Program-made: the position numbers and the translations under genes | In this document: in pieces, positions 2,902 through 13,672 of the stretch | Layout of the letters: every line of letters begins with the position of its first letter | Position numbering within the stretch: position 1 is the stretch's first letter | The notes under the pieces: model-generated | Told to the model about the DNA's origin: nothing | Databases searched by the model: none | What the model saw: the letters and a program-made list of their open reading frames with translations, nothing else | DNA from: Luteimonas deserti | GTDB taxonomy: Bacteria; Pseudomonadota; Gammaproteobacteria; Xanthomonadales; Xanthomonadaceae | Direction of reading: 5' to 3' | DNA length: 64,000 nucleotides | Assembly (NCBI RefSeq): GCF_013425765.1 | Contig: NZ_JACCJZ010000020.1 | Location: 124,001 to 188,000 of the forward strand

Positions 2902-3924
2902 CTAGAGCCAGCGCGCGCGCTTGAACATGCGATACAGCACGGCCATCACCGCGATCACGCCGCCGATCAGCACCGGATAGGCGTAGCGTCCGTCCAGCTC
3001 GGGCATCATGTGGAAGTTCATGCCGTACCAGCTGGTGATCAGCGTCGGCGCCGCCAGCAGCGCCGCCCAGGCGCCCAGCCGTTTGACGGTCTCGCCCTGG
3101 GTCAGGGTGACCAGGGCCTGATTCACGCTCAATGCCGTGCCGAGCATGTCGCGGATGGCATCCACGGTCTCGTTGATGCGCACCGAATGGTCCAGCACGT
3201 CGCGCATGTACAGCTTGGCCTCGGCCGGAACGAGCGGGCTGCCCGAGCGCACCAGCTGCGAGAGCACGTCCTGCAGCGGGGTCACCGCCACGCGCATGTA
3301 GGTGAGCTCGCGTTTGAGCGCGTACAGCCGGATCACGATCCCGCGGTGGAACTGTTCGCTGACGATCTTCTTCTCGAGCGTGTCCAGCGTCAGCCGGAAG
3401 TCGTCGACGATCGGCAGGTAGTTGTCGACGATCGCATCGAGCACGGCATACAGCGCGGCTGCCGGACCCAGCGCCAGCAGCTGGGGCTCGCGCTCGATGC
3501 GCAGGCGCGCCGGCGCATACGACAACGACGCGCCGTGGCGCACGCTCACGAGGTAACGCGGGCCCAGGAACAGATGGGTTTCGCCGTAGGCGATGCGCTC
3601 GTCGATGGCCTGCGCGGTCTGCGCGACGATGAACAGAGAATCGCCGTAGGCCTCGATCTTGGGGCGCTGATGTGCCTTGCCGGCGTCCTCGATCGCCAGA
3701 TCGTGCAGGTCGAATTCCGCCTGGAGCACGGCCAGCACCCCGGCATCTGGTTCGAACAAGCCGATCCACGCGAACGCGTCCGGATCGCAGGCCAGCGCCG
3801 CGCCGATCTCCGCCAGCGGGACATCGCGCTTGCCCGCGGGCCCGTAGAGCGCACAGTTCACGACGCTGGAGGGATTGCCGGTGGGAGCTGCGGACGGGCT
3901 GGTCATCGCGGCATGGTCGGCCAT
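2902..3924 (-). CDS. corA: CorA-family Mg2+/divalent cation channel
   Basis: A 340-residue CorA-type channel that passes Mg2+ (and Co2+/Ni2+ in some members) across the inner membrane. The signature YGMN (residues 300-303), followed by MPEL, sits between two C-terminal transmembrane helices. A long cytoplasmic alpha/beta and coiled funnel domain precedes them. A second in-frame ATG seven residues in would give a slightly shorter protein. It stands alone, convergent with the arsA-like gene and downstream of the GH97 gene on the same strand. Nothing appears truncated. A Zn2+ exporter role (ZntB-like) is the main alternative, but the intact GMN motif does not separate the two. Confidence 0.92.
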   Translation of the reverse strand: MADHAAMTSPSAAPTGNPSSVVNCALYGPAGKRDVPLAEIGAALACDPDAFAWIGLFEPDAGVLAVLQAEFDLHDLAIEDAGKAHQRPKIEAYGDSLFIVAQTAQAIDERIAYGETHLFLGPRYLVSVRHGASLSYAPARLRIEREPQLLALGPAAALYAVLDAIVDNYLPIVDDFRLTLDTLEKKIVSEQFHRGIVIRLYALKRELTYMRVAVTPLQDVLSQLVRSGSPLVPAEAKLYMRDVLDHSVRINETVDAIRDMLGTALSVNQALVTLTQGETVKRLGAWAALLAAPTLITSWYGMNFHMMPELDGRYAYPVLIGGVIAVMAVLYRMFKRARWL

Positions 3925-3948: not shown

Positions 3949-5988
3949 TCAATGCGCGACGAAACGGATCGCCTGCCCACCGCCGGGCGCCATCGCCACT
4001 GTGAGCACGCTCGAGGCGCCGATCTCGCGCGCTTCGATCACCAGGGCGTGCGGATCCGCCTGCCACCCGGCGCCGGGGCCGTCGCGGTAGATCTGCGCGG
4101 TGTAGCGGCGACCGGGTTCGAGGAAGTCCAGGGCGACCTCGACATTGCGCGGCGTGTCGTCGGTCACCGCGCCCAGATACCAGTCGTCGCCGCCGCGTTG
4201 ACGCCGGGCGATCACCGCGAACTCGCCGACCGCGCCGTCGAGCGCGCGCGTCTCCTCCCAGTCCACCGGCACGTCGCGGACGAACTGGAACGCCTCGGGG
4301 CGCGCCTCGTAGTGGTCGAGCAGGTCGGCGGCCATCTGCAGCGGACTGTAGATCACCACGTACAACGCAAGCTGCTTGGCCAGCGTCGTCGCCATCGGTG
4401 CACCGGACCTGGTGTCCATGCCGAAGATGCCGGGTGTGAAATCCATCGGCCCGGCGAGCAGGCGCGTGTAGACCAGCGTCGCCTCGTGCTCCGGCGGATT
4501 GCCCGGCTGCCCCCAGGCGTTGTACTCCATGCCCCGCGCGCCTTCGCGCGTCACCAGGTTCGGATACGTGCGGCGCAGGCCGGTGTCCTTGACCGGCTCG
4601 TGCGGGTTGACGCTGATCCGGTGCTGCGCCGCGGCCTCCACGACGCGCTGGTGATGCCGCACCATCGCCTGGCCTTCGTGCCAGGCGTAGCGCAGCGCGC
4701 CGTCGTCGCCGCGCACCTTGGCCTGCCCGGCGTCGGCGACATAGCCGGTCTTGACCGCCTGCACGCCGAGACGGCCGTACAGCGCCATCGCATCGTCGAG
4801 CTGCGCTTCGTAGTGCGCCGCGTGGCCCGACGTCTCGTGGTGACCGATCAGGGTCACGCCCTTCTCGCGCGCGTGGCGGGTGACGGCCTCGATATCGAAG
4901 TCGGGGTAGGGCCTGGTGAAGCTGAAGGTCTCGCCGTTGCCGAACCAGTCGCCGTCCCAGCCGACGTTCCAGCCCTCGACCAGCACGCCGCCGATGCCGT
5001 TCGCCGCGGCGAAATCGATGTGGCGGATCGCATGCGCGGTGGTGGCGCCGTGCTTCGGTCCCGAGGCCCAGGTCTTGCGATCCAGGTGCATCTCCCACCA
5101 GATACCGACGTATTTCATCGGCCGCACCCAGGAGACATCACCGAGCGCGTCGGGCGCGTTGAGGCTGAGGATCAGGCTTGATTCGACCAGTCCACCGGCG
5201 CGCTCGCTGATCTGGATCGTGCGCCAGGGTGTCGCGAACGGCGCGGCCACCTCGACCTTCGCCGCGCCGATTCCGGGCGTCAGTGCGGCCTTGAAGCGGC
5301 GGCCTTCCGCGCGCGTGAGGTTCATGCCCGAATAGTCGACCAGCGCCGCTTCGTGGATCGACAGGTGCAGGCCATCGCCGGTCCGCAGGGTGATGGGCGT
5401 CTGCGCCAGCCCGACTTCCTCGACCGGGGTGCGGTGATAGATGTACTCCTCGCGGTTCCACTCGAACGCGGGGATCCACCACGCGGTCGCGGCGTCGGCG
5501 ATGTCGAACTCGGTCAGCTCCTCGGCGATCGACAGGCGGTCGAGCCCGGGCTGCTTCGGCACGTCATAGCGGAAGCCGACACCGTCGTCGAACACGCGGA
5601 ACACCACGTCGAAGCGACGCTTCGGTCCCGCGGTCTCGGCCAGCGTGACCCGCAGTTCGTTGTGGTGGTCGCGCATCTGCCGGCGCTCGCCCCAGGGCTG
5701 CTCCCAGCGTTCGTCATGCGTTTGCGTGGCTTGGCCGACGATCGCCAGATTGCGTTCGAACTTGCGCGTATCGGTGAACATCAGGCCCAGGCGCGACGGC
5801 GCGATGACCGCGCGGCCATCGCGACTGACGGCGTAGCTGGCGCGGCCCTCGTTGTCGGTGGTGACCTCCACGGTGATGCGGGCATCCGGCGAGGCGATAC
5901 GCGCGCTGGTGCGCGGCTCGGAAGCCGGCGTGGCGAAGGTGGCGAGTGGCAGCAGCGCAGCCAGCAGTCCGGCAAGACGGTTCGACAT
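3949..5988 (-). CDS. Glycoside hydrolase family 97 (alpha-glucosidase/alpha-galactosidase type), secreted
   Basis: A 679-residue GH97 protein. The N-terminus is a Sec signal peptide (LAGLLAALLPLATFATPA), then an N-terminal beta-sandwich, a TIM barrel and a small C-terminal domain. Glutamates expected of the inverting branch (SusB-like) are visible in HHETSG, in the NPHEP segment, and in MEYNAW. GVLVEGWNVGWDGDW is typical of the family. ATG 5988 is chosen because a purine-rich GGGAGGG precedes it and the signal peptide follows directly; a longer in-frame version to 6195 adds a non-hydrophobic leader. It probably acts in the periplasm on alpha-linked oligosaccharides (inference from family). 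No sus-like partners are present in the window. Confidence 0.9.
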   Translation of the reverse strand: MSNRLAGLLAALLPLATFATPASEPRTSARIASPDARITVEVTTDNEGRASYAVSRDGRAVIAPSRLGLMFTDTRKFERNLAIVGQATQTHDERWEQPWGERRQMRDHHNELRVTLAETAGPKRRFDVVFRVFDDGVGFRYDVPKQPGLDRLSIAEELTEFDIADAATAWWIPAFEWNREEYIYHRTPVEEVGLAQTPITLRTGDGLHLSIHEAALVDYSGMNLTRAEGRRFKAALTPGIGAAKVEVAAPFATPWRTIQISERAGGLVESSLILSLNAPDALGDVSWVRPMKYVGIWWEMHLDRKTWASGPKHGATTAHAIRHIDFAAANGIGGVLVEGWNVGWDGDWFGNGETFSFTRPYPDFDIEAVTRHAREKGVTLIGHHETSGHAAHYEAQLDDAMALYGRLGVQAVKTGYVADAGQAKVRGDDGALRYAWHEGQAMVRHHQRVVEAAAQHRISVNPHEPVKDTGLRRTYPNLVTREGARGMEYNAWGQPGNPPEHEATLVYTRLLAGPMDFTPGIFGMDTRSGAPMATTLAKQLALYVVIYSPLQMAADLLDHYEARPEAFQFVRDVPVDWEETRALDGAVGEFAVIARRQRGGDDWYLGAVTDDTPRNVEVALDFLEPGRRYTAQIYRDGPGAGWQADPHALVIEAREIGASSVLTVAMAPGGGQAIRFVAH

Positions 5989-6278
5989 CGTGCAGCGCCC
6001 TCCCGGACGCAGTGGGTGATGCGTTCGCCGGGAGTCTGGCACGCGGAATCCACGCGGCTCGGGTGCATACGTATGCAGGGATGCGTGCGCCGGCGTGATC
6101 CGCAATGGCGCGCGCGACCGCACCTGGATCACCGGGAGGCCCATGGTGCGGAGACGGCGGGAGGCCAGTGGCGTCCGGCCGGAGCACGGACGCACGGCGG
6201 ATTTCGCCTGAGACCGGGCTGGGCCTTGTCCGGGCGGATCTGCGGCTCAACCGTCTGCGCGGAATTCCCGGATTGCCG

Positions 6279-7508
6279 TCAGGAGCGAAGCGAAGCCGGC
6301 GCTGCAGGGCGTCGCAGCGCCCAGTACAGCGCGACGTGCACCGGCATCAGCAGCGACAGCCAGGCCGCGTTGCGCTGCGGCAGCACCGGCAGCCAGTGCA
6401 GGAACAGGGCGGCCACCCCGGCCAGCAGGACCGTCACGAGCGTCCAGCGGAACAGGGGACCCGCGTCGCGCCCGCGGGCGATGCGCCAGCCGCCCCGCAG
6501 CAGCAGCAGGCACAGCGGATTGAACAGCAACAGGTTGTGGTTCTGCCACGCGAAGTGGTGCGCGGTGGCCCACCACAGCAGCAGCATCACCAGGCCGAGC
6601 AGGGCGCACAGCGACCAGAACGGCAGGGCCGCTGCGGCGACCACGCGGGGCGCACGCGTACCCGCCGCCAAAAGCGCACCGCCGATCGCGAGCCCGGCGA
6701 GCAGCCAGGGCCACAGGCGGCGCGCACGTTCCGGGGGCTCGGCCTGCTGCCGATGGGCGATGACCGTGGTTTCGCCGCGCACGAGTGGGCGACCGTCGGC
6801 GCGGCGAACGCTGCGCAATGCGTCCGCCAGACGCATCGGCACGAAGGCGTCGTCCCAGAGTGCATTCGGCCGGTCCGATGCGGGGCCCAGGCCGATATCG
6901 AAGCCCAGCCACATCCAGGGGGCCGGCGAGGCCAGGCGCACGGCGTCGCCGCGATAGGTGTTGCCGCGCGATCGTCCCTGCAGCTGGCGTCGTAGCAGGC
7001 CGTCCAGCGCACCGTCGAGAGCGTCGCGCACGCGCGTCGAACAGTTGTCGGTGAAGTAATCGTAGCGGTAATGCGCGTTCTCGGGCCGCGCGTTCTCGGC
7101 CAAGGCGTCCGCGAGCCGCAGCGCCTGCTCCGGGTCGAGATCGAGCCACTGGATGGTCACGCCGCGCCCGACATCGCGGTAATAGGCGAGATCTTCGAAC
7201 AGCGGCAGCGCCATCAGCTGGTAGCGCATGTCCCCACGGAGGAAGCGCCCGATGAAGCCCGGCTCGGCCGGGTCGAAATACCCGAAGTTGTAGGACACCG
7301 GGCCCGGCGCATCCGGCGCGTCCACCACGATGGCGTTGTGGCCGAAGCGCTCGAAGAACACGTCGCCCGGCTGCATCGTGGCCACGCCGATGCGTGGTAC
7401 CGGCGCTGCCGGGTCCTGGGCCAGCGCCGGCCACGCCAGCGCCAGGCACGTCACGAGCACCGCCCGCCACCATGCGGCGGCGGGCCGGAGCCGGTCAGTC
7501 GGCCGCAT
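6279..7508 (-). CDS. DUF4105 / Lnb-like periplasmic thiol-fold domain protein with C-terminal membrane helices
   Basis: A 409-residue protein with a signal sequence, a periplasmic DUF4105 domain (about residues 40-240) and roughly five hydrophobic helices at the C-terminus. Putative active-site residues are His57 in RFGHNAI and Cys156 in DNCSTR, matching the His and Cys positions of this NlpC/P60-like fold. In Bacteroides, the Lnb proteins with this domain N-acylate lipoproteins. ATG 7508 overlaps the end of corC by 14 bp, so the gene is translated with ybeZ-ybeY-corC, in the slot that lnt holds in many gammaproteobacteria. A lipoprotein-acyl or membrane-lipid role is an inference; the domain assignment is firm. 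Confidence 0.82.
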   Translation of the reverse strand: MRPTDRLRPAAAWWRAVLVTCLALAWPALAQDPAAPVPRIGVATMQPGDVFFERFGHNAIVVDAPDAPGPVSYNFGYFDPAEPGFIGRFLRGDMRYQLMALPLFEDLAYYRDVGRGVTIQWLDLDPEQALRLADALAENARPENAHYRYDYFTDNCSTRVRDALDGALDGLLRRQLQGRSRGNTYRGDAVRLASPAPWMWLGFDIGLGPASDRPNALWDDAFVPMRLADALRSVRRADGRPLVRGETTVIAHRQQAEPPERARRLWPWLLAGLAIGGALLAAGTRAPRVVAAAALPFWSLCALLGLVMLLLWWATAHHFAWQNHNLLLFNPLCLLLLRGGWRIARGRDAGPLFRWTLVTVLLAGVAALFLHWLPVLPQRNAAWLSLLMPVHVALYWALRRPAAPASLRS

Positions 7509-8364
7509 GCACGCTGACGTGCAACGCATGCAGCCGGCGCGAGTCGGCGTCGGTGATGCGAAAGGCGAAGCGGCCCAGGGTCAGTTCCTCGCCCACCTCG
7601 GGCAGGTGGCCGATAGCGCCGATGATCACGCCGCCGATGGTGTCGTACTCGTCGTCGTCGAAGTCGGCGCCGAAGCGCTCGTTGAAATCGGCGATGGGGG
7701 TCAACGCGCTCACCGCGAACTGGCCGTCGGCCTGGGCGGCGATCAGCGCGTTCGGATCCTCGGCGTCGTCGTGCTCGTCGTCGATCTCGCCGACGATTTC
7801 CTCCAGGACGTCCTCGATCGTCAGCAGGCCCGCGACGCCGCCGTACTCGTCGATCACGATGGCCATGTGGTTGCGCGACTGGCGGAACTCGCGCAGCAGC
7901 ACGTTGAGCTTCTTGGATTCGGGGATCAGCACCGCAGGACGCAGCAGCTCGTGGATCGTGCCGGGCCCGTTGTCGGCGACCACGCCGCGCAGCAGGTCCT
8001 TGGCGAGGAGGATGCCCAGGATCTCGTCCTTGTCCTCGCCGTGCACCGGGAAGCGCGAGTGGCCGGATTCGACCACCTTTCGCATCAGTTCCAGGAACGG
8101 GGCATCCGCCGGCAGCGCCACCATCTGCGCGCGCGGGATCATCACATCGCCCACGGTCTTGCTAGAGATGCCCAGCGCGCCCTCGAGCATGCGCAGCGTG
8201 TCGGCGTCGATCAGCCCGTCTGCATGGGTGTCGCGCAGCAGTTCGACGAGGTCGTCGCGGTTGCTGGGTTCGCCGGAGATCGCCGAGCTCAGGCGCTCGA
8301 GCCAGCCGCGTCGGCGTTCATGGGGTTCGGAACCGGGGGAGGGTCGACTGTCGTCCTCGGACAT
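7495..8364 (-). CDS. corC: CorC/HlyC family protein, CBS-domain pair
   Basis: A 289-residue soluble CorC (YbeX) homologue without the CNNM membrane domain. An acidic N-terminus leads to two CBS domains (about residues 70-190), with the motifs VMIPRAQM and DEYGGVAGLLTIEDVLEEIVGE interrupted only by normal family spacing. The CorC_HlyC C-terminal domain follows (about 210-285). E. coli CorC has been linked to Mg2+/Co2+ efflux with CorA and to ribosome and membrane homeostasis through the ybeZYX operon. It lies 70 bp downstream of ybeY and overlaps the DUF4105 gene by 14 bp, so all are probably one transcript. Confidence 0.94.
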   Translation of the reverse strand: MSEDDSRPSPGSEPHERRRGWLERLSSAISGEPSNRDDLVELLRDTHADGLIDADTLRMLEGALGISSKTVGDVMIPRAQMVALPADAPFLELMRKVVESGHSRFPVHGEDKDEILGILLAKDLLRGVVADNGPGTIHELLRPAVLIPESKKLNVLLREFRQSRNHMAIVIDEYGGVAGLLTIEDVLEEIVGEIDDEHDDAEDPNALIAAQADGQFAVSALTPIADFNERFGADFDDDEYDTIGGVIIGAIGHLPEVGEELTLGRFAFRITDADSRRLHALHVSVHAAD

Positions 8365-8434
8365 GGTGCGGATCTGGTCAGGTCGCGTCCGGATGGACGC
8401 ACGGAGAGTCTAACAGGCCGGCGCGAACGGCCCG

Positions 8435-8926
8435 TCAGCGCACTTCGCCGGCGTAGGGATCGCCCACGCCGAGCCCGGCGAGAATCTCGCGTTCCAGCTG
8501 CTCCATCGCCTCGGCCTCGGCGGTGTTGTCGTGGTCCCAGCCCAGCAGATGCAGCACGCCGTGCACCGTGAGGTGGGCGTAATGGGCATTCAGGGTCTTG
8601 CCTTGCTCGGCAGCCTCGCGCGCGACCACCGGCGCGCACAGCACCAGGTCGCCGAGCAGCGGCAGACGCACGCCCTCGGGCAGCCCTTCGGGCAGTTCGG
8701 CCGGAAAGCTCAGCACGTTGGTGGCGTAGTCCTTGCCGCGGTAGTGCCGGTTCAGCGCCCGGCCCTCGTCCTCGCCGACGATGCGGATCGCGAGGTCCGC
8801 CTCGCGGATGCGGCCGGCGAGCGCCGCGCCGGCCCAGCGCCGGAAGGTCGCGGCAGCGGGCACCCCCTTGCGCGCCGTGGCATACCCGACGGCGACCTCG
8901 AGATGAACGGGCCCGCGGGTCATCAT
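8435..8926 (-). CDS. ybeY: Endoribonuclease YbeY, 16S rRNA maturation
   Basis: A 163-residue YbeY (UPF0054), a single-strand endoribonuclease involved in 16S rRNA 3' end maturation and ribosome quality control. The zinc-binding motif [11 protein letters not shown] (residues 122-132) supplies the three metal-ligand histidines, His122, His126 and His132. The conserved [13 protein letters not shown] lies at about 63-75. The start overlaps the ybeZ stop by 4 bp (ATGA), a standard coupled arrangement. Length is typical, with nothing missing. Confidence 0.96.
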
Positions 8927-9915
8927 TCGGAACCGCGTTGCCCGCTGGCGGCCGCATCGGCATCGCGGCGCTCGTAGGCGCTCACGATCCGCGCCACCAG
9001 CGGATGCCGCACCACGTCGCGTGCCTCGAAGAAGGTGAAGCTGACCCCGTCGACGCCCTTGAGCACCTCGATCGCGTCCTTGAGCCCGGACCGCACGTGC
9101 TTGGGCAGGTCCACCTGGGTCATGTCGCCGGTCACCACCGCGGTACTGCCGAAGCCGAGCCGGGTCAGGAACATCTTCATCTGTTCGATGGTGGTGTTCT
9201 GCGCCTCGTCGAGGATCACGAACGCGTCGTTGAGCGTGCGGCCGCGCATGTAGGCCAGCGGCGCGATTTCGATCACGTTGCGCTCGAGGAGCTTGGCGAC
9301 CTTTTCGACGCCGAGCATCTCGTAGAGCGCGTCGTACAACGGACGCAGATACGGATCGACCTTCTGGCTCAGGTCGCCGGGCAGGAAGCCGAGCTTCTCG
9401 CCCGCCTCGACCGCGGGGCGCACCAGGATCAGGCGTTGCACCCGCGACTCGTTGAGCGCATCGACCGCCATCGCCACCGCAAGGAAGGTCTTGCCGGTGC
9501 CGGCCGGACCGATACCGAAATTGATGTCGTGGGTGGTAATGCGGTGCAGGTACTTGGCCTGGTTGGCGCCGCGGCCGCGGATGGTGCCGCGCTTGACCCG
9601 CACCGCGACCTCCTGCGGTGCGTAGTCCGGGTCGTCGTTGACCACGTTGGCCTCGCTCAGGCGCAGCGCGATGCCCTGGGTGTCGAACACCTCGGTCTCG
9701 GTCTCGGCGTAGAGGGCCTTGAGCAGACGTTCGGCATCGTCGAGCGCGCCGAGCTCACGTCCGCTGATACGGAAGATATTGCCGCGGTTGGCGATCTCCA
9801 CACCCAGTCGCAGCTCGATCTGGCGCAGGTGGGTGTCGAAGGGGCCGGCGAGATTGGCGAGCCGCCCGGTATCGGAGGGCTCGAGCAGGAAGTTGCGTTC
9901 GTGGAGATCGGTCAT
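8923..9915 (-). CDS. ybeZ: PhoH-like ATPase YbeZ
   Basis: A 330-residue PhoH-family P-loop ATPase. A KH-like N-terminal region (about 20-75) precedes the ATPase domain. Walker A is GPAGTGKT (136-143) and the Walker B region reads VILDEAQN. YbeZ binds YbeY and is thought to act as a nucleic-acid-dependent helicase or ATPase partner in ribosome maturation. It is the first gene of the minus-strand ybeZ-ybeY-corC-DUF4105 run. In related genomes miaB often precedes it directly; here a divergent ampR/bla pair separates the two. Confidence 0.95.
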
Positions 9916-10015: not shown

Positions 10016-10891
10016 TCATGCCGTGACGCCCCCTTCGGCCTGCAGCCAGTGGCGGAAGCGCGCCGCCGCTTCGCTGTCCGGGCGCGAGCGCAGCTGCGTG
10101 AGCCAGTAGCGCCCGAGCTCAAGGGTCTGCGCGAAGACCTGGACCAGTCGTCCCTGGGCCAGGTCCTGCTCGAACAGTTTCAATGGCAGCAGGGCGACCC
10201 CGCTTCCGGCCGCGGCCGCGCTGGCGAGGGTCAGCGACGAATCGAAGACCGGACCGCGGGCTTCGAGTCCGGGCATGCCGGCGGCGCGCAGCCAGCGCGG
10301 CCACTCGTCGCTGCGGTAGGACCGCAGCAGCGGCACGCGCGCGAGGTCCTGCGGCTGCATCACGGTCCGCGCCAGTGCGGGCGCGCACAGCGGTGCGAAC
10401 GGGGCGTCGAGCACGGGTGTACACAGCTGGCCCTGCCAGTCGCCGTCCCCGAAGCGGATGGCCAGGTCGAGACCGTCGCCTGCCAGATCGATCCGGTTGT
10501 TGTGGGTCTGCAGGCGCAGCTCGATGTCCGGGTGCCGGGCGGAAAAGCCGGCGAGGCGCGGCAGCAGCCAGCCGGTGGCGAACGTGCCGACCACGCCCAC
10601 GTGCAGCACCGTCTGCGCCGGACCCTCGACCAAGCGATCGAGGCTGGCCGCGATACGGTCGAATGCCGCATTGAGTGCCGGGTAGAGCCGGGCGCCCTCA
10701 TCGGTCAGGGCGACGCCACGCGGCAGGCGATGGAACAGCGCCGTGCCCATGCGGTCCTCCAGGCTGCGGATCTGGTGGCTCAGCGCGGCCTGGCTCACGC
10801 ACAGTTCGAGGGCGGCGCGGGTGAAGTTCTGGTGCCGCGCGGCGGCTTCGAACGCGCGCAGGGCATGCAGCGGCAGCTGGGAGCGGAGCAT
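10016..10891 (-). CDS. ampR: LysR-type regulator AmpR-like
   Basis: A 291-residue LysR-family activator. The winged helix-turn-helix is N-terminal (ALRAFEAAARHQNFTRAA through the ALSHQIRSLE recognition region, residues about 8-60). The C-terminal part is a two-lobed effector-binding domain. Divergent pairing with a class A beta-lactamase marks it as the AmpR regulator, which in related bacteria senses muropeptides and switches bla from repression to induction. ATG 10891 is preferred because the family N-terminus LPLHALRAFEAA begins a few residues later; upstream in-frame codons run into the shared regulatory region. Confidence in LysR is very high and in AmpR function high from context. Confidence 0.9.
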   Translation of the reverse strand: MLRSQLPLHALRAFEAAARHQNFTRAALELCVSQAALSHQIRSLEDRMGTALFHRLPRGVALTDEGARLYPALNAAFDRIAASLDRLVEGPAQTVLHVGVVGTFATGWLLPRLAGFSARHPDIELRLQTHNNRIDLAGDGLDLAIRFGDGDWQGQLCTPVLDAPFAPLCAPALARTVMQPQDLARVPLLRSYRSDEWPRWLRAAGMPGLEARGPVFDSSLTLASAAAAGSGVALLPLKLFEQDLAQGRLVQVFAQTLELGRYWLTQLRSRPDSEAAARFRHWLQAEGGVTA

Positions 10892-11096
10892 CGGCGTGAC
10901 GTGAGCGGAGTTGATACCAGTCTCGCATCGCCCAGTGCATTCGGCGCAGGGGTCAGCGCGATGGGGCGATCGGCCGAATGTGGCCGAGCGCCTGGCGCAA
11001 CGAGGCATCAGTCTGCCTCATGTCTCTTCCTTGGAATCGTTGCTGGTGAGCGGACCGGCCTGTTCCGATACTGGAGTCCCAGCTCCGGAGATGCCC
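10892..11096. promoter_or_regulatory. ampR-bla divergent control region with 8-bp inverted repeat
   Basis: A 205-bp region between divergent ampR and bla. It contains an inverted repeat with arms CATTCGGC (10938-10945) and GCCGAATG (10973-10980) separated by 27 bp. A further CGGCCGA-type repeat overlaps the right arm. LysR regulators bind such dyads between divergent promoters. Assignment as the AmpR operator is an inference; no clean -35/-10 pair was identified. Confidence 0.35.
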
Positions 11097-12005
11097 ATGC
11101 CCGCCCGACGTCAATTCCTCCTCTGGACCGGCGCTGCCGCCGTCGCCGCCCTGGCCGGCAGGGTGCCTGCGGCCGACCGCGCGCCCGCTGTCGCGGATGC
11201 GGCAACGCGTCAGGACTTCGCCACGCTCGAGGCCGCCAGCGGCGGGCGCCTCGGCGTCACTCTGCTCGACACCGCGAGCGGGTGGCGCACCGGTCATCGT
11301 CAGGACGAACGGTTTCCGATGTGCAGCACCTTCAAGTTCGCGCTGGCGGCGGCGGTACTGCGCGGCGCCGACCGTGGCGTCCTGTCGCTCGATACGCGCG
11401 TGCCGGTGCGCCGGCAGGACATGGTGTCGCATGCTCCGGTGACCTCGCGCCATGTCGGCAAGGACCTGACCCTGCGCGACCTGTGCCGCGCGACCATGAT
11501 CACCAGCGACAATCCGGCCGCGAACCTGCTGCTGGGCCAGATCGGCGGGCCGCCAGGACTGACCCGGTTCCTGCGCGAGAGCGGCGATGCCGTCACCCGT
11601 AACGACCGCACCGAGCCGGCGATGAACCGCTTCGCCCCGGGCGATCCGCGGGACACCACCAGCCCGGCCGCGATGGCCGCGAGCCTGCAGCGCTTCGTGC
11701 TCGGCGAGACCCTGTCGCCCGCCTCGCGCCAGCAGCTGGCCGACTGGCTGATCGACAACGAGACCGGTGACGCGCGCCTCCGCGCCGGACTGTCGCCGGC
11801 CTGGCGGGTGGGCGACAAGACCGGCAGCAACGGCGAGGACACCAGCAACGACATCGCGATCCTGTGGCCGCTCGCGGGCGGCCCGGCCTGGGTCCTGACC
11901 GCCTATCTGCAGGGCGCGAGAATCCCGGATTCCGAGCGCAACGCCGTCCTGGCCCGCGTCGGCCGCATCGCCGAGACCATCATCGCCGGACGCTCCGGCG
12001 CCTGA
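11097..12005 (+). CDS. bla: Class A beta-lactamase, L2-like, probable Tat export
   Basis: A 302-residue serine beta-lactamase. Active-site motifs are all present: Ser77-x-x-Lys80 in CSTFK (Ambler 70-73), SDN at 137-139 (Ambler 130-132), Glu173 in EPAMN (Ambler 166) and KTG at 241-243. Cys76 precedes the nucleophile, but no partner Cys follows KTG, so the carbapenemase-type disulphide is not expected. The leader has twin arginines (ARRQFLLWTGAAAV), as in Tat-exported L2-type enzymes. ATG 11097 has CGGAG six bases upstream; ATG 11091 abuts that sequence and is less likely. It would hydrolyse penicillins and cephalosporins in the periplasm and is probably inducible by AmpR. Confidence 0.93.
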   Translation: MPARRQFLLWTGAAAVAALAGRVPAADRAPAVADAATRQDFATLEAASGGRLGVTLLDTASGWRTGHRQDERFPMCSTFKFALAAAVLRGADRGVLSLDTRVPVRRQDMVSHAPVTSRHVGKDLTLRDLCRATMITSDNPAANLLLGQIGGPPGLTRFLRESGDAVTRNDRTEPAMNRFAPGDPRDTTSPAAMAASLQRFVLGETLSPASRQQLADWLIDNETGDARLRAGLSPAWRVGDKTGSNGEDTSNDIAILWPLAGGPAWVLTAYLQGARIPDSERNAVLARVGRIAETIIAGRSGA

Positions 12006-12079: not shown

Positions 12080-13528
12080 TCAGGCCGCGGCGATCCCGGA
12101 CACGACCACCCGCCCGCGCAGGGAATTGCTGAGCGCCGCCGTGATCTCGACGTCGACGAACCGGCCGATCAGCCGCGCCGGCGCGGGAAAGTTCACCGAA
12201 CGCATGTTCTCGGTCTTGCCGGTGAGCTCGGTCGGATCCTTGCGCGACGGGCCTTCGACCAGCACCGTCTGCACGGTGCCGACCATGCGCTCGGAAATGC
12301 CGGCGGCATACGCATTGATGTGTGCCTGCAGCCGCGAGAGGCGGGCGTGCTTTTCCTCCGGGGTCACCGAGTCCTCGAGATCCGAGGCCGGTGTGCCCGG
12401 GCGACGCGAATAGATGAAGGAGAACGACTGGTCGAAGCCGACGTCCTCGATCAGCTTCATGGTCTTCTCGAAATCCGCTTCGGTCTCGCCGGGAAAGCCG
12501 ACGATGAAATCCGAGGAGATCGAGATGTCGGGACGCACCGCGCGGAGTTTGCGGATCTTCTGCTTGAACTCGAGCACCGTGTAGCCGCGCTTCATCGCCG
12601 ACAGGATGCGGTCGCTGCCGGCCTGCACCGGCAGGTGCAGGTAGTTCGCGAGTTTCGGTACGTCGCGGTAGGCCTCGATCAGCGAGTCGGAGAATTCGAG
12701 CGGATGCGACGTGGTGAAGCGGATGCGGTCGATACCGTCGATCTCGGCGATGGTGCGGATCAGCAGGCCGAGGTCGGCGGTCGCGCCGTCGCCCATGTCG
12801 CCGCGGTAGGCATTGACGTTCTGGCCGAGCAGGTTGATTTCGCGCACCCCCTGGGCGGCCAGCTGCACCACTTCCACCAGCACGTCCTCGAACGGTCGGC
12901 TGATCTCGGTGCCGCGGGTGTAGGGCACCACGCAGAACGAGCAGTACTTCGAACAGCCTTCCATGATCGACACGAACGCGGTCGGGCCCTCGGCGCGCGG
13001 CTCGGGCAGCCGGTCGAACTTTTCGATCTCGGGAAAACTGATGTCGACCTGGGGCAGGCCGGTCTCGCGCTTGGCGCGGATCAGCTCGGGCAGGCGGTGC
13101 AGGGTCTGCGGGCCGAACACCAGGTCCACGTAGGGCGCACGCTTGACGATGGCCTCGCCTTCCTGCGACGCCACACAGCCGCCGACGCCGATCAGCACCG
13201 GCCTGCCGTCCTTCTTCAGCGCCTTCCAGCGGCCGAGCTGGCTGAAGACCTTTTCCTGCGCCTTCTCGCGGATCGAGCAGGTGTTGACGAGGACGACGTC
13301 GGCTTCCTCGACGTTGTCGGTCAACTCCAGGCCGTCGCTCGCGGCGAGCACGTCGGCCATCTTGGCCGAGTCGTACTCGTTCATTTGGCAGCCGTGGGTC
13401 TGGATGAAGAGCTTGCCGCGCGACGGGGCCGCGCGCTGCGGGCTGCAGGCAGCCCCAGGCAGGGTGGCGTCGGGGATCGGTGCGAGCGCGGCGGGCGGCG
13501 CGGGCGCCGTGGAAGCGGTCTGGGTCAT
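12080..13528 (-). CDS. miaB: tRNA-2-methylthio-N6-dimethylallyladenosine synthase MiaB
   Basis: A 482-residue radical-SAM methylthiotransferase that adds the methylthio group to i6A37 of tRNAs. The N-terminal cluster cysteines are Cys47, Cys84 and Cys118. The radical-SAM CxxxCxxC is Cys192, Cys196 and Cys199 in GCSKYCSFC. The C-terminal TRAM domain ends near the stop. ATG 13528 follows from the conserved N-terminus; about 35 extra Ala/Pro-rich residues precede the catalytic part, which is not unusual in this family. It is divergent from the transglycosylase gene. In many gammaproteobacteria miaB is followed by ybeZYX; here ampR/bla lies between. Confidence 0.96.
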
Positions 13529-13672
13529 GGCGTGTCCGGGGCGCGGCGTTGAGTCCGGGCCGGAAGGCGGTGAGGGGAGCGAAGTGTAGCGACATCGCCC
13601 GGGCGTGCGCGGCCCGACGTGTTCAGGATCAAGCACTTGGCAAGCGCTCCGGAAGCAGGGACACTCCGCACC

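Follow-up and report, generated by a model that had tools for sequence, protein, structure and literature searches.

Which enzyme attaches the third fatty acid to the lipoproteins of Luteimonas deserti and its relatives? In proteobacteria Lnt is usually considered to catalyse the final step in the maturation of lipoproteins, and it is regarded as a drug target. In E. coli K-12 its gene closes the order miaB-ybeZ-ybeY-ybeX(corC)-lnt. In the stretch of 64,000 nucleotides analysed here (the window) ybeZ-ybeY-corC is followed instead by a gene for a DUF4105 protein. A sequence-only reading of the window had described this arrangement next to that of E. coli and had considered functional replacement or addition of Lnt possible. 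The positions of the open reading frames (ORFs) and their Pfam matches agree with it, and the E. coli K-12 locus has the order that it had quoted. Because miaB also lies upstream of ybeZ-ybeY-corC in the window, as it does in E. coli K-12, the gene occupies the slot of lnt. From sequence comparison and a predicted structure we consider it about 83% probable that an Lnb-type lipoprotein N-acyltransferase is encoded here, which took over from Lnt at this very locus, in the simplest case early in the history of this gammaproteobacterial order. The data are best read as a non-orthologous replacement by a putative cysteine acyltransferase.

The domains of the window protein were assigned by Pfam. 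Lnb_N (PF13387, which we take to be the former DUF4105) covered residues 51-177 with an E-value of 2.4e-17 and 63.5 bits against a gathering score of 22.2, and 5TMH_Lnb (PF25221) covered residues 281-394 with 9e-7 and 29.5 bits against 25.2. Neither LNT_N nor CN_hydrolase was among the Pfam matches of the gene at E ≤ 1. At E ≤ 0.001 all 46 aligned sequences matched Lnb_N, and all but one (45/46) matched 5TMH_Lnb. The NCBIfam model for the lipoprotein N-acyltransferase Lnb, NF051878, matched residues 34-387 (E 1.4e-43, 149.3 bits). Taken together the window protein is like Lnb by domain content and predicted fold, and by the cut-off of NCBI it is outside the equivalog. Lnb itself is the lipoprotein N-acyltransferase of Bacteroides reported by Armbruster et al. 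(2024, PNAS), according to the accessible parts of PMC12994826, PMC13103446, PMC11694511 and PMC13251419. The genome of the window (G000) encodes a second Lnb_N protein of 631 amino acids (aa) on contig C16 (L004:730-2625), which has an N-terminal DUF7844 and no 5TMH_Lnb match; NF051878 gave no match there.

H64 and C163 were invariant in 46/46 rows of one alignment (A2) and in 14/14 rows of another (A1). The sequence-only reading had called the same residues His57 and Cys156 and conserved, and this stands. The numbering depends on the start codon: the first ATG at 7529 yields a protein of 416 aa with H64 and C163 and a 35-bp overlap with corC, and an alternative ATG at 7508 yields His57, Cys156 and the overlap of 14 bp that had been given earlier. 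Start positions differ among 80 relatives, and both are candidate starts. Five residues of the membrane part, H324, N330, N332, Q385 and W390, were invariant in all 46 rows as well.

An AlphaFold2 model calculated with 46 sequences reached a pLDDT of 87.9 and a pTM of 0.82. It comprises a helix (16-36), an alpha/beta domain of the permuted NlpC/P60-like type (about 45-257) and a helical membrane domain (273-405); its longer helices are 273-292, 294-321, 338-351, 358-379 and 388-405. C163 is located at the N-terminus of helix 163-174. By their composition the loops fit a catalytic domain in the periplasm, and the invariant polar loops would lie on the same side of the membrane. VIA-align, run on the candidate list of Foldseek, superimposed the N-terminal domain on TseH (Z 11.0, 149 residues aligned, rmsd 3.3), YiiX (Z 10.8, 164, 4.1), Bacillus cereus 3kw0 (Z 9.0, 136, 3.1) and PLAAT4 (Z 7.8, 104, 2.9; the tool flags Z < 8 as possibly unspecific). 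By sequence, phmmer found no relative in the Protein Data Bank (PDB), and a profile search of it gave three matches at chance level. As modelled, the N-terminal domain resembles a permuted NlpC/P60 fold. The available text of PMC12994826 groups TseH, YiiX and LRAT as permuted NlpC/P60 proteins and states that relatives of LRAT and YiiX act on lipids, LRAT-like members transferring or releasing the acyl chains of phospholipids.

The distribution of Lnb was determined in samples of the family, order, class and phylum of the species; the samples overlap, and each was drawn evenly from the larger group. Matches to NF051878 were counted at E ≤ 0.001 in family and order and at E ≤ 1e-12 in class and phylum. 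Lnb was present in 114 of 119 genomes of the family and 117 of 121 of the order, in 3 of 229 of the class and in 10 of 398 of the phylum, and every match in the two larger samples fell inside the own order. Five family genomes had no Lnb match (G030, G036, G094, G110 and G114). Three of them had no corC match at E ≤ 1e-30 either, and two had only a paralog of 28-30% identity; with no proper corC, the locus is therefore missing from those assemblies or lineages. G094 has one Lnt over the cut-off used below. A seemingly split Lnb in G066 turned out to be an alignment artefact of the hidden Markov model, as one frame spans residues 1-409.

Lnt was counted with TIGR00546 at its cut-off of 132.9 bits. 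It was found in 206/229 genomes of the class sample (205/226 outside the own family), in 28/119 of the family and in 19/121 of the order; at E ≤ 1e-12 the order count rose to 36/121, the additional matches being below the cut-off. The high-scoring Lnts of the order (298-305 bits) belong to G123, G133 and G135, which are three of the four order genomes without Lnb. The fourth, G158, is 80% complete, and its corC match (4210-5013) lies near the end of a contig of 5135 bases. The remaining 16 Lnt matches had 147-204 bits and come without exception from genomes with an Lnb match, that of G165 being weak. LNT_N exceeded its cut-off in 24 of the 121 order genomes, and 96 of the other 97 have Lnb. 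The counts of Lnb, Lnt and LNT_N in these 121 genomes rule out that the whole order kept a canonical Lnt and simply gained Lnb besides. Six genomes (G195, G209, G190, G138, G225 and G120) have open frames of about 480-540 aa with LNT_N, whose match to TIGR00546 breaks off near position 278 of 395; they possibly represent another Lnt-derived family.

The comparison with further Lysobacter and Luteimonas genomes that had been proposed with the sequence-only reading bore out the order: among the best 80 of at least 444 relatives corC was directly upstream of lnb in 77 loci, and phoH-ybeY-corC-lnb was complete in 69. Two of the other three loci had wider gaps, and one contig was too short. These 80 were mostly from Luteimonas, Lysobacter, Xanthomonas, Stenotrophomonas and Pseudoxanthomonas, some being named only to family or class; the closest named relative found, in a scan from which records very near the window may be missing, was Luteimonas terrae with 76% identity. 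In the order sample 116 genomes had both genes; in 105 of them the Lnb match followed that of corC on the same strand at a distance below 400 bp, in five it followed at 521-1375 bp, and in six it was elsewhere or on another contig. The pairwise distances of Lnb and CorC were correlated (r = 0.763 for 77 loci, with no more than 0.105 in 500 permutations), and joint inheritance would give just such a correlation. Outside the order the slot belongs to lnt, which followed corC by 191-494 bp in 37 of 40 class genomes (those with the 40 best-scoring Lnts of 206); in one exception lnt was 3.2 kb from corC and in two it was on another contig.

The real exceptions to the Lnb rule inside the order are the two genomes of family f6 (G123 and G133), where lnt comes after corC and starts 60 and 63 bp downstream of its match, and G135. 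The latter has a cassette of miaB, phoH, ybeY, a CorC-like gene and lnt (L150, G135:C1:970000-988000), the CorC being about 30% identical to that of the window, and no Lnb match. Perhaps the cassette was acquired as a whole. Because Lnb is present in 117/121 and Lnt in 19/121 order genomes, the high-scoring Lnts sit in genomes without Lnb, and Lnb holds the corC slot in 105/116, for the order as a whole the comparative evidence supports the earlier suggestion in its first form, replacement. Nearly all sampled members of the order would then probably add the third fatty acid of lipoproteins by a different chemistry than that of Lnt.

For this particular genome addition has to be considered, because a divergent Lnt-like gene lies elsewhere. 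A protein of 816 aa would then carry out the bulk of N-acylation, and the Lnb-type enzyme would acylate a subset of lipoproteins or another substrate. The Lnt-like ORF (L001:1291-3741) is on contig C10, away from corC on C19. Its match to TIGR00546 (G000:C10:87738-88946, 183.3 bits) exceeds the cut-off; LNT_N and CN_hydrolase were both found by Pfam, followed by about 320 residues without a Pfam match, and Glu, Lys and Cys, which we take to be the catalytic set of Lnt, are kept. A search for lnt elsewhere had been advised with the sequence-only reading, and a canonical copy was to speak against it. What was found goes halfway, as the catalytic residues are there but the gene is divergent, with CLD in place of CYE. 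The 18 long Lnt-like rows that we aligned all have Glu, Lys and Cys, with CLD in 17 and CRD in one, whereas nine canonical rows have CYE; at the same site a 533-aa row of G102 reads CYE and a 434-aa row of G203 reads CYD. The protein may be a second N-acyltransferase. An adjoining ORF on C10 narrowly missed the gathering thresholds for GDSL lipase families. Addition also gains from G011, a genome with a long Lnt-like gene in which the coding sequence of Lnb (L184, G011:C15) shifts frame after about residue 176, by either real decay or a sequencing error. Yet the long subfamily is sporadic across the order: only 28/119 genomes of the family have an Lnt over the cut-off (in 27 the open frame has at least 816 aa), whereas Lnb is near-universal, and 87 of 114 Lnb-bearing family genomes manage without an Lnt over the cut-off. 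Moreover the long family matches reach 166-209 bits compared with 298-305 for the three canonical Lnts of the order, none of the 15 lower-scoring order matches in genomes with a corC match adjoins corC, and 97 of 121 order genomes lack LNT_N over the cut-off, nearly all of them having Lnb. Thus we regard addition in this genome as rather unlikely.

A phospholipase or acyltransferase acting on another acceptor, in the manner of LRAT, PLAAT or YiiX, is less probable still; its place behind corC would be coincidental and the lipoproteins would stay diacylated. The fold group does contain lipid-targeting toxins and phospholipases (PMC12994826, in the portion at hand), an earlier survey guessed a role of DUF4105 in transport or translocation from gene context (PMC10318531, accessible part), and no Lnt was found in Xanthomonas campestris B100, for which diacyl anchors were modelled (PMC10368991, accessible part). 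In that last source, as far as its text was available, the diacyl anchor was deduced from the absence of Lnt and not measured. Two Lnb domains over nearly the full length, the conserved slot and the complementarity with high-scoring Lnt also argue for an Lnb-type enzyme. An accident of annotation or assembly, with a chance juxtaposition in one genome, has next to no probability: nothing was found in its favour, and adjacency of corC and lnb in 77/80 loci (69/80 with phoH and ybeY) and 105/116 order genomes refutes chance.

Several observations weigh against replacement of Lnt by an Lnb-type enzyme. The equivalog cut-off of NF051878 is 550 bits, far above the 149.3 bits of the window protein; it was reached by none of the 121 order genomes, the Bacteroides ihuae control being above it. 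Two of the 117 order matches are weak or partial, with 21.5 bits in G165 and 49.4 bits beside a contig end in G201, and G030, G036, G110 and G114 (85-94% complete) have neither Lnb nor Lnt over the cut-off. With Foldseek the best PDB match, TseH, had an E-value of 0.02, and none reached E ≤ 0.001; PLAAT4 fell below the warning level of Z 8, and the VIA-align matches of the helical part, up to Z 8.2 with JAGN1, are probably unrelated and were not trusted. The Lnt-like gene of this genome with its intact Glu, Lys and Cys belongs here as well. Because 27 of the 28 family genomes with an Lnt over the cut-off also carry Lnb, the Lnt-like genes and Lnb are not exclusive. Finally, a corC tree of 36 rows, from which the row of G135 had been removed beforehand, required two changes between Lnt and Lnb, and a single change sufficed in only 8% of the bootstrap trees. 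Because that tree leaves f6 unplaced, one swap and a swap followed by a reversal are indistinguishable.

How could the Lnb-type enzyme work? We infer that the N-terminal helix and the C-terminal helical domain hold the permuted NlpC/P60 domain on the periplasmic side of the inner membrane. His64 would activate Cys163, which would accept a phospholipid acyl chain and form a thioester with it. Transfer of this chain to the free alpha-amine of diacylglyceryl-cysteine, the product of Lgt and LspA, would follow. This course is suggested because LRAT-like proteins transfer or release phospholipid acyl chains. The product would be a triacylated lipoprotein ready for Lol export, and the second, Lnt-like protein of this genome may contribute to this step or have a different function. 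Going further, we tentatively suggest that the order, which includes Xanthomonas, Stenotrophomonas, Lysobacter and Luteimonas, swapped a nitrilase-fold Lnt for an unrelated cysteine enzyme of the NlpC/P60 type at the same locus, that lipoproteins supposed to be diacylated are triacylated, and that a divergent Lnt paralog persisted or re-entered in a minority with another acceptor, so that in some cells two unrelated N-acyltransferases would operate side by side. That paralog has open frames mostly of at least 816 aa, the CLD motif and a C-terminal extension of about 300 aa.

The principle of an exchange between Lnt and DUF4105 proteins is already in print, because PMC12994826 (2026), in the part available, reports that Lnt repeatedly took the place of DUF4105 proteins, in three different genomic contexts, and refers to the work on Lnb of Bacteroides. 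CorC, YbeY, Xanthomonas and Lysobacter do not occur in its main text, where Stenotrophomonas appears a single time, within a reference. The accessible parts of PMC13103446 and PMC11694511 do not link Lnb with Xanthomonas, and our search of the open-access literature turned up no report that a whole order made this swap behind corC. For X. campestris B100, where no Lnt gene was reported and diacyl anchors were modelled (PMC10368991, 2023, as far as accessible), the deduction would need revision if our reading is true. X. campestris was not among the 80 best relatives, and other Xanthomonas species carry Lnb after corC; the gene suggests that anchors in Xanthomonas are not diacylated. Xanthomonas, Stenotrophomonas and the rest of the order would then use a different enzyme to complete their lipoproteins, and those that depend on Lnb alone would be expected to be indifferent to inhibitors of Lnt. 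That both types share one slot speaks on genetic grounds, and apart from any biochemistry, for the interchangeability of Lnb-type and Lnt enzymes.

Features of the lnb locus in the window
Feature	Position	Strand	Basis
Lnb-type lipoprotein N-acyltransferase (predicted)	6279..7529	-	Pfam, NF051878, AlphaFold2, VIA-align
Codon of predicted nucleophile Cys163 (Cys156 from start 7508), motif DNCST	7041..7043	-	
Codon of predicted catalytic His64 (His57 from start 7508), motif RFGHN	7338..7340	-	
corC/ybeX (CBS + CorC_HlyC)	7495..8364	-	Pfam CorC_HlyC 4.6e-19
ybeY endoribonuclease	8435..8926	-	PF02130 1.4e-32
ybeZ/phoH	8923..9915	-	PF02562 (PhoH) 6.3e-97
miaB	~12080..13630 (start approximate)	-	UPF0004, Radical_SAM, TRAM

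Between ybeZ and miaB, which adjoin in E. coli, the window has a LysR regulator (-) and a gene of the beta-lactamase family (+) at 10016-12005; the two are divergent and their ORFs overlap. Directly downstream of lnb a GH97 glycosidase (3949-6195) is encoded, and beyond it a CorA-type transporter (2902-3924).

With Lnb of Bacteroides the window protein shares the architecture of Lnb_N and 5TMH_Lnb, a match to NF051878 over almost the whole model and the presence of a conserved His and Cys. It differs in its score of 149 bits against a cut-off of 550, in its occurrence in one gammaproteobacterial order and in its locus, ybeZ-ybeY-corC, which normally is the place of lnt. With Lnt, as in ybeX-lnt of E. 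coli, it shares the gene slot and presumably the reaction, but it has no LNT_N or CN_hydrolase match, and its predicted fold is that of a cysteine enzyme of the NlpC/P60-like type, not the nitrilase fold. The lipid enzymes of the permuted NlpC/P60 group (TseH, YiiX, PLAAT/LRAT and Tox-Act1) have the predicted fold and the order of His before Cys in common with it; the window protein is set apart from them by its helical membrane domain and its place in a housekeeping locus.

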